Origin: Verrucomicrobiia bacterium
GTDB taxonomy: Bacteria > Verrucomicrobiota > Verrucomicrobiia > Verrucomicrobiales > DEV007
NCBI GenBank assembly: GCA_020439925.1
Contig: JAGRPC010000194.1
Span: forward strand, 1 to 33,567
Direction of reading: 5' to 3'
Length of the DNA stretch: 33,567 nucleotides
Shown: one piece after another, positions 1,032 through 13,648 of the stretch
Numbering within the stretch: position 1 is the stretch's first letter
Layout: every line of letters starts with the position of its first letter
Translations under genes and position numbers: made by a program
The notes under the pieces: model-generated
What the model was told of the DNA's origin: nothing
What the model saw: only the letters and a program-made list of their open reading frames with translations
Database searches by the model: none

Positions 1032-1931
1032 TCATCCCTTCGCAAAATACTCCGCACTCTGGTAGCGCCCTTCCTCCATCCGCGCGATCTGCATCTCCAC
1101 GTCGAGAAGCAGCGAACTCGCCCCGAAACGGAAGAGGTCCGGGGTGAGCCAGTCGTCCCCGGCCGTTTCCTTCACCATGACGAGATACTGCAGGGCCTCC
1201 TTCGCGGTGCGGATGCCGCCGGCGGGCTTGACACCGATGCGGCGTCCGGTGGCGAGGAAGTGGTCACGCACCGTCTCGACGAGCACGAGAGTGACCGCGA
1301 GGGTCGCCGCGGGAGAGACTTTGCCCGTGGAGGTCTTGATGAAGTCCGCACCCGCCTCGATCGCGAGCTGGCTGACAAAACGGACGTTGTCGTAGGTCTG
1401 CAACTCTCCCGTCTCGAAGATCACTTTCAGGTGGGCGTCCCCGCAGGCCTCTTTCACCGCCGCGATCTCGTCGAAGACCCTCGCGAAATCTCCTTCGAGA
1501 AAAGCTCCCCGGCTGATGACCATGTCGATCTCCGAGGCTCCCTCAGTCACGGCAAAGCGGGTGTCGGCGAGGCGCAACTCGAGAGGGTATTGTCCACTGG
1601 GAAACCCTGTCGCCACCGAAGCCACGGGGATCCCGCTGCCCTCCAGCTCCTTCACCGCGTGGGCCACGAGGTTGGGATAAACACAAATGGCGGCACAGGG
1701 AGGGCAGCCATATTTTGCGGGCATGGGCTGTCGCGCCTTGCGGCAGAGTTGGGAAACTTTGCCCTTTGTGTCCGCTCCCTCGAGCGTGGTGAGATCCATC
1801 ATCGAGACGGCGAGGCGCAGCCCGGCACACTTCGCCTCGTTCTTGACCGAACGTTTCGTGAAGAAGGAAGCGCGGGCCTCGACCCCGACCTGGTCGACGG
1901 GAGGGACGGGGTGCTGGAGGGAGAAGCTCAT
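1032..1931 (-). CDS. deoC: deoxyribose-phosphate aldolase
   Basis: A 299-residue class I aldolase that cleaves 2-deoxy-D-ribose 5-phosphate to glyceraldehyde 3-phosphate and acetaldehyde in deoxynucleoside catabolism. The Schiff-base Lys lies in ADFIKTSTGK and the second conserved Lys in GVKPAGGIR. Other family blocks are MDLTTLEGADT, AAICVYP, IPVASVATGFPSGQ and EIDMVIS. Length and wording (DLTTLxGxDT, LFRFGASSLLLDVE, GRYQSAEY) match the long DERA type that includes the human enzyme better than the short roughly 220-residue bacterial type. It is the first gene of a pair with the aldehyde dehydrogenase immediately downstream. A promoter-like TTTACC-17-CACAAT lies just upstream, giving a very short leader. 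Confidence 0.96.
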   Translation of the reverse strand: MSFSLQHPVPPVDQVGVEARASFFTKRSVKNEAKCAGLRLAVSMMDLTTLEGADTKGKVSQLCRKARQPMPAKYGCPPCAAICVYPNLVAHAVKELEGSGIPVASVATGFPSGQYPLELRLADTRFAVTEGASEIDMVISRGAFLEGDFARVFDEIAAVKEACGDAHLKVIFETGELQTYDNVRFVSQLAIEAGADFIKTSTGKVSPAATLAVTLVLVETVRDHFLATGRRIGVKPAGGIRTAKEALQYLVMVKETAGDDWLTPDLFRFGASSLLLDVEMQIARMEEGRYQSAEYFAKG

Positions 1932-11533: not shown

Positions 11534-13405
11534 TCACTCGACCGGTTCGCGCATGAGCGGATTGGCCATCTTCTCGGGACTGAGAAGATCGTCGAGCTCA
11601 ACCTGGGTGAGCCAGCCCTTTTCGAGAACCAGTTCGTAGACGCCCCGGCCGGAGGCGAGGGCCTCCTTGGCGATCGAGGCGGAGCGCTCGTAGCCGAGGA
11701 TGGGGTTCAGGGCGGTGACGATCCCGATGGAATTCTTCACATAGCTGGCGCACTTCTCGCGGTTGGCGGTGATGCCGTTGATGCAGCGTGTCGTCAGTAC
11801 GATGGCCGCGTTTTTCAGGAGCATGAGACTGCCGAGAAGGTTGTAGGCGATGATGGGTTCGGCCATGTTCAACTCGAACTCGCTGGCCTCGGCGGCGAGG
11901 GAGACGGTCGTGTCCGATCCGATGATCTGGTAGCAGATCTGGTTGACGACCTCGGGCAGCACCGGGTTGACCTTTCCCGGCATGATGGAAGAGCCGGGTT
12001 GCAGGGGAGGGAGATTGATCTCGTTGAGGCCGCAGCGCGGTCCGGAGGAGGCCCAGCGAAGGTCGTTGCAGATCTTCGAGATCTGGATGGCGGTGACCTT
12101 GAGGGCGCTGCTCATGGTCGCGAACTCCGCGGCGTCCTGGGTCGCCTCGACGAGGTCGGTGGCAAGGGTGACAGGATGTCCGCTGATCGTCGCGAGTTTC
12201 GCGGTGCAGAGTTCGGCGTATCCGCGGGGACTGTTGAGTCCGGTCCCGATCGCGGTCGCGCCCATGTTGACCACGAGGAGATCCTCGGCGGCCCGGTTGA
12301 GCCGGCGGATGCCGTCGTTCAGCATCGTGGCGTAGGCGGTGAACTCCTGTCCGAGGGTCATGGGGACGGCGTCCTGGTTCTCGGTGCGCCCCATCTTGAG
12401 AACCCCGGCGAACTCGGCGGCCTTTGCCTGGAAGGCCTTGCGCAGCACGCCGAGGGCCGAGACCGTCTCGTGGGTGGCGGAGACGACCGCGAGTTTCACG
12501 GCGGTCGGATAGACATCATTCGTCGACTGGGAGCAGTTGACGTGGTCGTTCGGGTGGCAGTGAACGTAGTCTCCCTTTTCGTGACCGAGGATCTCGAGGG
12601 CGAGGTTGGCGATGACCTCGTTCGCGTTCATGTTCGAGGAAGTTCCCGCGCCTCCCTGGACCATGTCGACGACGAAGTCTTCATGCCGCTCGCCGGCGAG
12701 AATCCGGTCGCAGGCCCGGCCGATGGCGGTGGCAATGTCAGGGTCGAGGACGCCGAGCTCGGAGTTCGCCTCGGCCGCCGCCTTCTTCACGTGGGCGAAG
12801 GCGTTGACGAGGTGCTGGAAGTGGGAGAGGCGGACTCCGGAGAAGGGAAAGTTCTCCACCGCCCGCATCGTCTGGATGCCGTAGTAGTGGGTGTTGGAAA
12901 CCTCCCGTTCCCCGAGGGAGTCGTGCTCGCGGCGGTAGCCGGTTACGGGTGCCCGTTCGATTCCGGAGCGCACCAGCATCTCCGTGGTTTCGCGGAGGCG
13001 CAGGCTGAGGCGGCGGGCGGCCCGGGCGACCATGCGGTGGAAGATCTCGGGCTGTTCGAGGCGGAACTGTTCGATGGCTTCCTTGGTGACGACCCAGACC
13101 TCGGTGTCCTCGAGGGCGAGGCCGGAGACGCTGTGGTCGAGTTCGTCGATGAAGAGGGTCTCGCCGATCATCGCTCCCTCGGTGAGGCAGGCGATGGTGA
13201 CACTTCGCCCCGCGAGGCCTCGTTGCAGGTTGATCTTTCCCCGGAGGACGATGCCGAAAAAGCGGCGGGGCGCGGACTGGTGGAAGAGATAGTCTCCGGT
13301 CGCGAACTTCCGGTTCTTCCCGTTTGCCGCGAAGCGTTTCAGCTCCTCGGCGGACACGTCCATGTCGGCCGCGAGACGTTCGATCAGTTCGGGGGTGATT
13401 TCCAT
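11534..13405 (-). CDS. aspA: aspartate ammonia-lyase fused to an N-terminal cyclic-nucleotide-binding-type domain
   Basis: A 623-residue protein made of two families. Residues about 25-135 are a cNMP-binding/CRP-type beta-roll: FATGDYLFHQSAPRRFFGIV, LRGKINL, EGAMIGETLFIDEL, ending in helices. Residues about 157-615 are a full aspartase: THYYGIQTMRAVENFPFSG, GTSSNMNANEVIAN, HPNDHVNCSQSTNDVYPT and the catalytic mobile loop GSSIMPGKVNP with Ser 472/473 and Lys 478. Aspartase converts L-aspartate to fumarate and ammonia; the HYYGIQT wording points to aspartase rather than fumarase. Typical aspartases are about 470 residues, so the extra 150 residues are a genuine N-terminal addition in one uninterrupted frame. 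The phosphate-binding cassette keeps Gly-Glu (81-82) but has His-Ser-Val where Arg-Thr/Ser-Ala normally contacts the cyclic phosphate, so cAMP binding is doubtful. There is no C-terminal DNA-binding domain. Confidence 0.93.
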   Translation of the reverse strand: MEITPELIERLAADMDVSAEELKRFAANGKNRKFATGDYLFHQSAPRRFFGIVLRGKINLQRGLAGRSVTIACLTEGAMIGETLFIDELDHSVSGLALEDTEVWVVTKEAIEQFRLEQPEIFHRMVARAARRLSLRLRETTEMLVRSGIERAPVTGYRREHDSLGEREVSNTHYYGIQTMRAVENFPFSGVRLSHFQHLVNAFAHVKKAAAEANSELGVLDPDIATAIGRACDRILAGERHEDFVVDMVQGGAGTSSNMNANEVIANLALEILGHEKGDYVHCHPNDHVNCSQSTNDVYPTAVKLAVVSATHETVSALGVLRKAFQAKAAEFAGVLKMGRTENQDAVPMTLGQEFTAYATMLNDGIRRLNRAAEDLLVVNMGATAIGTGLNSPRGYAELCTAKLATISGHPVTLATDLVEATQDAAEFATMSSALKVTAIQISKICNDLRWASSGPRCGLNEINLPPLQPGSSIMPGKVNPVLPEVVNQICYQIIGSDTTVSLAAEASEFELNMAEPIIAYNLLGSLMLLKNAAIVLTTRCINGITANREKCASYVKNSIGIVTALNPILGYERSASIAKEALASGRGVYELVLEKGWLTQVELDDLLSPEKMANPLMREPVE

Positions 13406-13432: not shown

Positions 13433-13648
13433 CTAGTGTGGTGTTAGCCAAATCCCTGCACAAAACGTTTTTCAATTCTTGGGGCATCAGCTCGCTTCGC
13501 TCGGATTGTTTTTCGAACCCGCGGGTCTCTTTTCCACCTTCCGCGTTGCTCGTCGGTCGCTGAGCTCGCTCAACTCCCTCCTCCCGCCTTGAAGTTGAAA
13601 AAGATTTCTCACGGGTTTTGCACCGGAATTTGGCCAACACCACACTAG
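13433..13648. repeat. MITE-like 216-bp element with about 34-bp imperfect terminal inverted repeats
   Basis: The left end 13433-13466 begins CTAGTGTGGTGTTAGCCAAA. The right end, read on the opposite strand from 13648, begins CTAGTGTGGTGTTGGCCAAA and continues to a matching GTGCAAAAC-like block, as on the left. The interior of about 150 bp has no credible gene. Both ends carry CTAG, so a TA target duplication (IS630/Tc1-mariner style) is possible; a GATC direct repeat also lies next to both ends, offset by one base. The element sits 28 nt upstream of the fusion gene and may supply or alter its promoter. Together with the two hairpins at 13654-13717 it fills the 315-nt gap between the fusion gene and hom. 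Confidence 0.65.

Follow-up and report, generated by a model that had tools for sequence, protein, structure and literature searches.

An aspartase-type lyase fused to a cyclic-nucleotide-binding-type domain recurs across bacterial phyla

Results

The window analysed here is a stretch of 33,567 nucleotides from a Verrucomicrobiia bacterium (contig JAGRPC010000194.1). On its minus strand lies a single uninterrupted frame of 623 amino acids, with an ATG start and no internal stops, that joins an N-terminal cyclic-nucleotide-binding (CNB) domain to a complete aspartase (Table 1). The first-pass annotation had read both parts in one frame, and the open reading frame, Pfam and NCBIfam all agree with it; the three Pfam domains scored above their curated cut-offs. 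At the threshold used this is the sole such lyase in its own genome, the only further match being a CNB protein in its own right. A homoserine dehydrogenase gene lies upstream of the fusion and an alpha/beta hydrolase gene downstream, neither of them obviously linked to it.

Table 1. Features of the CNB-aspartase fusion gene, in positions of the window.
Feature	Position	Strand	Details
CNB-aspartase fusion gene	11534..13405	-	623 aa + stop; ORF, Pfam and NCBIfam
N-terminal CNB part, residues 1-156	12938..13405	-	Pfam, AlphaFold2, fold matches
Pfam cNMP_binding, residues 32-114	13064-13312	-	E 6e-14, 52.2 bits, cut-off 27.5
Region of the phosphate-binding cassette (residues 77-96), containing Glu82 and His91	13118..13177	-	
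His91 codon, replacing the usual cassette Arg	13133-13135	-	
Long C-helix (predicted; residues 119-146) of the kind by which CRP dimerises, continuing into the linker	12968..13051	-	AlphaFold2
Lyase_1 domain, residues 165-496	11918..12913	-	Pfam, E 6e-89
Active-site segment GRTENQDA, residues 339-346	12368..12391	-	
Glu342 codon, replacing AspA Gln191	12380-12382	-	
Catalytic loop GSSIMPGKVNP, residues 471-481	11963..11995	-	
FumaraseC_C domain, residues 562-614	11564..11722	-	Pfam, E 7e-22

Positions 13433-13648, 27 bp upstream of the fusion start codon, hold a 216-bp element whose 34-nt ends are inverted repeats (85% complementary). It resembles a small MITE-like mobile element, which might influence the fusion promoter; neither the rest of the window nor any other locus compared contains a copy.

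The fusion is a recurrent gene. Of 387 genomes sampled within the order, 44 have a full-length fusion; these belong to three families, identities are 47-90%, and some of the genes sit on single-contig chromosomes. When the CNB part alone was used as the query against one genome per GTDB species, 44 loci were recovered, and in 43 of them the frame continues into aspartase; in the 44th it is ended by a contig edge. Since 44/387 genomes carry the full-length fusion and 43/44 CNB loci run on into aspartase, its occurrence is far beyond chance, and related genomes encode as one gene the two parts that, as had been cautioned at first pass, might be separate genes there. The window comes from a fragmented metagenome-assembled genome (MAG) of 607 contigs, a setting in which two separate genes might be fused by an error of sequencing, assembly or binning, but dozens of independent fused homologues, including some from single-contig genomes and isolates, rule out such an origin, to which we assign virtually no probability.

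The fused homologues collected number 87 distinct proteins. Type 1, the name used here for the clade of the window protein, spans seven phyla and includes single-contig genomes and named isolates. In the scan with the CNB part alone, the loci outside Verrucomicrobiota come from Desulfobacterales, Geobacteraceae, another deltaproteobacterium and Acidobacteria, and further ones from the isolate Propionivibrio limicola and from an Anaerolineae, an Acidimicrobiia and a Mycobacterium MAG. The fusion is present in 16 of 146 sampled Desulfobacterales genomes and in 21 of 199 sampled Acidobacteriota genomes (two of the latter partial). The class of Propionivibrio, Actinomycetota and Chloroflexota each yielded a single fusion, in every case that of the genome around which the search was built. 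Some single cases are MAG contigs, for which misbinning is conceivable; the isolates are far less exposed to this doubt. Among 363 plasmid records containing a relative, none reached 80% coverage of the query, and the best plasmid matches were stand-alone aspartases. A search of open-licence papers for aspartase or aspartate ammonia-lyase together with CNB or Verrucomicrobia did not find this architecture.

The enzyme part has the features of an aspartase. It passed the NCBIfam PRK12273 aspartate ammonia-lyase subfamily model (704 bits, cut-off 510) and narrowly missed the cut-off of the strict equivalog TIGR00839 (aspA; 672 bits, cut-off 681.2), and is therefore assigned to the subfamily and not to the equivalog. 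Over the lyase part its identity to E. coli AspA is 52%; to FumC it is 38%. The aspartase-type motifs GGAGTS and QSTND are present, the catalytic loop is intact, and the aspartase-type catalytic residues are all there (T255, S294, T295, T341, K478 and N480, with the loop). The full-length model superposes on aspartases with a TM-score of about 0.92 over the target. In a tree of the lyase part it falls in a 53-row clade with E. coli AspA (support 100/99), with E. coli FumC outside. A fumarase identity was excluded by the aspartase motifs and by the tree position apart from the fumarases.

One active-site position sets most type 1 enzymes apart. The core of type 1 reads GRTENQD, where stand-alone relatives read GRTQLQD, GRTQMQD or GRTHLQD. 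At the position of AspA Gln191 a Glu is found in 64 of the 87 fused proteins, including most of type 1, and in 0 of the 51 stand-alone aspartases and fumarases examined, all of which have Gln or His; the window protein has Glu342. In Bacillus AspB this position is presumably close to the amino group of the substrate. Glu342 may tune substrate binding or the pH response, and a change of substrate is less likely. If the substrate were something other than aspartate, the sensor would control a different ammonia-lyase or lyase reaction. The loss of a Gln or His kept by all 51 stand-alone relatives and the narrowly missed TIGR00839 cut-off lean that way, but the remaining catalytic motifs are all of aspartase type, the tree places the lyase with E. 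coli AspA and apart from the fumarases, and genes for aspartate or C4-dicarboxylate transporters lie nearby in other genomes. We consider another substrate quite unlikely.

Such transporter genes are a recurring part of the neighbourhood. In other genomes, 16 of 37 loci have a gene for a DcuA/DcuB C4-dicarboxylate transporter close to the fusion, nearly always directly upstream, and 5 of 37 have one for an AspT-family exchanger. These assignments were made with Pfam for three Dcu and two AspT-family genes, the others being grouped by BLAST. The E. coli aspA gene likewise adjoins dcuA, and the Dcu linkage points to aspartate-fumarate metabolism. The fusion of the window itself has neither a transporter nor a cyclase gene next to it.

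An AlphaFold2 model built with 31 fused homologues gives the N-terminus a CNB fold (pLDDT 86) ending in the long C-helix, in accord with the Pfam profile score above cut-off. The best PDB matches of this model are CRP-family regulators such as GlxR and M. tuberculosis CRP; several of these regulators bind cAMP. The matches also include the CNB domain of the enzyme Bd1971. The first-pass annotation would fall if this region were not CNB-folded; the model and the PDB fold matches rule out a non-CNB fold.

The phosphate-binding cassette departs from that of CRP, in which an Arg holds the cAMP phosphate. As read at first pass, it keeps Gly-Glu (Gly81-Glu82) and has His-Ser-Val (His91-Ser92-Val93) where E. 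coli CRP has Arg-Ser-Ala. Among the 87 fused proteins, His91 is found in 67/67 of type 1 and 18/20 of type 2 (the fused proteins outside the window's clade), Glu82 in 65/67 and 18/20, and a further pocket residue, Arg47, in 66/67 and 17/20. Gly81 is replaced by Ser in about half of type 1. His was seen by eye at position 91 in none of six other CNB proteins, namely E. coli CRP and five from these genomes. Since the cassette Arg is replaced by His, we do not class the window's domain as a canonical cAMP-binding domain. Glu82, His91 and Arg47 are among the most conserved CNB residues over the seven phyla, and the pocket is thus kept, in a form that is not the textbook cAMP pocket. Arg136 on the C-helix was considered as part of the pocket signature and dropped, as unrelated CNB proteins of the same genomes carry it. 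The CNB part is under purifying selection, with dN/dS of 0.05-0.35 in eight pairs, roughly two- to fourfold the values for the lyase.

A small stand-alone CNB protein (157-aa frame) whose cassette also has no Arg is encoded elsewhere in the window's own genome (contig C424, positions 1399-1872, plus strand; L209), and is a possible second non-canonical sensor.

In the lyase-part tree type 1 is monophyletic, with 27 representative rows from seven phyla and support of 100/98, or 100/99 once doubtful rows were removed. The type 2 proteins are mostly 47-52% identical to the window protein, are common in Acidobacteriota, and occur at dispersed positions between stand-alone aspartases. A tree test rejected the grouping of all fused proteins in one clade (p = 3e-9), and the fused and stand-alone states require five to six changes on the tree. 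The rejection leaves two histories: a single ancient fusion that was later lost in places, or repeated fusion or exchange of domains. Because the His91/Arg47 signature is common to both types, the sequence comparison favours a common source of the CNB domain with later losses or exchanges.

Several genomes carry unusual copies. In G853 the gene L200 (4650-6551, plus strand) is a mosaic CNB-aspartase whose first half is type 1-like and whose second half resembles a stand-alone aspartase; another contig of this genome holds a type 1 C-terminal fragment. The mosaic gene was excluded from the second lyase tree. A genome of the window's own genus (G496) encodes a type 2 fused aspartase (L080, 4469-6340, plus strand) that is about 47% identical and has Tyr in place of His91; it may have arrived by horizontal transfer. 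Two divergent type 1 fused copies are present in each of G218 (L034/L035), G483 (L069/L075) and G504 (L071/L078).

Class III cyclases, of which the window's own genome has eight matches, were detected in 46 of 51 genomes with the fusion and 22 of 29 without it, so that no significant association was found (p = 0.11). A search for class III cyclases detected none in three type 1 genomes (G504, G736 and G737). Given the non-significant association and these three genomes, a cyclic nucleotide is a possible ligand and not a required one.

Discussion

Bacterial CRP-type sensors are best known for acting via transcription. Here such a sensor sits inside a core metabolic enzyme that joins nitrogen release to the fumarate/succinate branch. 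The fold and C-helix of the CNB domain are common to CRP/FNR-family regulators (CRP, GlxR and NtcA), but these carry a DNA-binding domain where the fusion has a lyase, and the fusion is without the cassette Arg. The stand-alone aspartases E. coli AspA, Bacillus sp. YM55-1 AspB and Elizabethkingia 6WNG have the same fold and catalytic motifs as the fusion lyase, but are without a sensor domain and have Gln or His where most of type 1 has Glu342.

The closest parallels are enzymes that, like the fusion, have a CNB domain and a catalytic domain in one chain. Bd1971, a Bdellovibrio CNB-EAL c-di-GMP phosphodiesterase, is activated by cAMP, its proven ligand (PMC6717892); its CNB domain is likewise N-terminal, but its enzyme part is a c-di-GMP phosphodiesterase whereas that of the fusion is metabolic. 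In mycobacterial Pat/KAT a CNB domain is fused to a GNAT domain, and direct activation by cAMP has been shown (PMC5861322). Pat/KAT shares with the fusion the order of an N-terminal CNB and a C-terminal catalytic domain; it differs in that it acetylates other proteins via a different catalytic domain, and the cAMP activation is a feature of Pat. Our best hypothesis, by analogy, is that the fusion works like these two CNB-controlled enzymes.

On this hypothesis the lyase would convert aspartate to fumarate and ammonia, with its activity set by an effector in the N-terminal CRP-like CNB domain. We think it probable that the aspartase is controlled by an effector bound in the CNB domain of the same chain. 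The regulation proposed at first pass thus stands as the best hypothesis, still inferential, now with a predicted CNB fold and a fusion conserved as one gene behind it. Known aspartases are tetramers. In the model the CNB domain ends in the C-helix, which leads through a short linker to the first lyase residues, and effector binding would move this helix and so alter subunit packing or loop closure in the lyase. We infer a role in the control of aspartate-to-fumarate flow, which could serve ammonia release or, in anaerobes, fumarate respiration.

The CNB domain might instead have lost small-molecule sensing and become an assembly or docking module, for example for a larger oligomer or for binding a partner protein. 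Such a module would fit the absence of the cassette Arg, the faster evolution of the CNB domain than of the lyase and the missing class III cyclase in some related genomes. A dead pocket, however, would not need Glu82, His91 and Arg47, which are highly conserved over seven phyla, and we regard an assembly or docking role as improbable.

No type 1 member has the cassette Arg, so that binding of cAMP is not to be taken for granted, and classical Arg-mediated binding by this domain is doubtful. The suspicion at first pass that the ligand may not be cAMP is thereby strengthened, as the change from Arg to His is near-invariant across phyla. In NtcA the same cavity is adapted to a metabolite, 2-oxoglutarate, but the Arg is kept (PMC12937710). 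For the fusion we give equal weight to an unusually bound cyclic nucleotide and to another small metabolite, neither reaching an even chance, and half that weight to no small ligand at all. The conserved non-canonical pocket thus poses a concrete question, namely what binds a CNB domain that has His for the phosphate Arg, and several fusion members come from cultured bacteria, making it testable on ordinary laboratory protein.

It is possible, though we would put it somewhat below an even chance, that these proteins form a widespread aspartase class with a built-in CNB domain of new specificity, marked by His for the phosphate Arg and recognising no classically bound cyclic nucleotide. If so, a CNB domain of new specificity, together with Glu342 in type 1, would place the aspartate-fumarate step under direct signal control in at least seven phyla. 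The recurrence of the fusion in at least seven phyla, with a pocket unlike the textbook one, suggests direct switching of aspartate breakdown by a signal in many bacteria, and if the domain is regulatory, transcription would be bypassed for this step. Four features go beyond the first-pass annotation: the occurrence in many phyla, the pocket signature with its conservation, Glu342 in the active site and the dicarboxylate-transporter genes nearby.

Two loci carry a second CNB-enzyme gene. In Chthoniobacter flavus the gene next to the fusion (L125, 7863-10178, plus strand) encodes a 771-aa protein in which Pfam finds cNMP_binding, acetate kinase and phosphate propanoyltransferase domains, and at L070 (4272-6626, minus strand) a protein resembling it by sequence likeness lies beside the CNB-aspartase, its cassette having neither the Arg nor the His. 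These neighbours may point to several anaerobic carbon steps being under the control of signals, and the Chthoniobacter fusion hints that further metabolic enzymes may be CNB-controlled.
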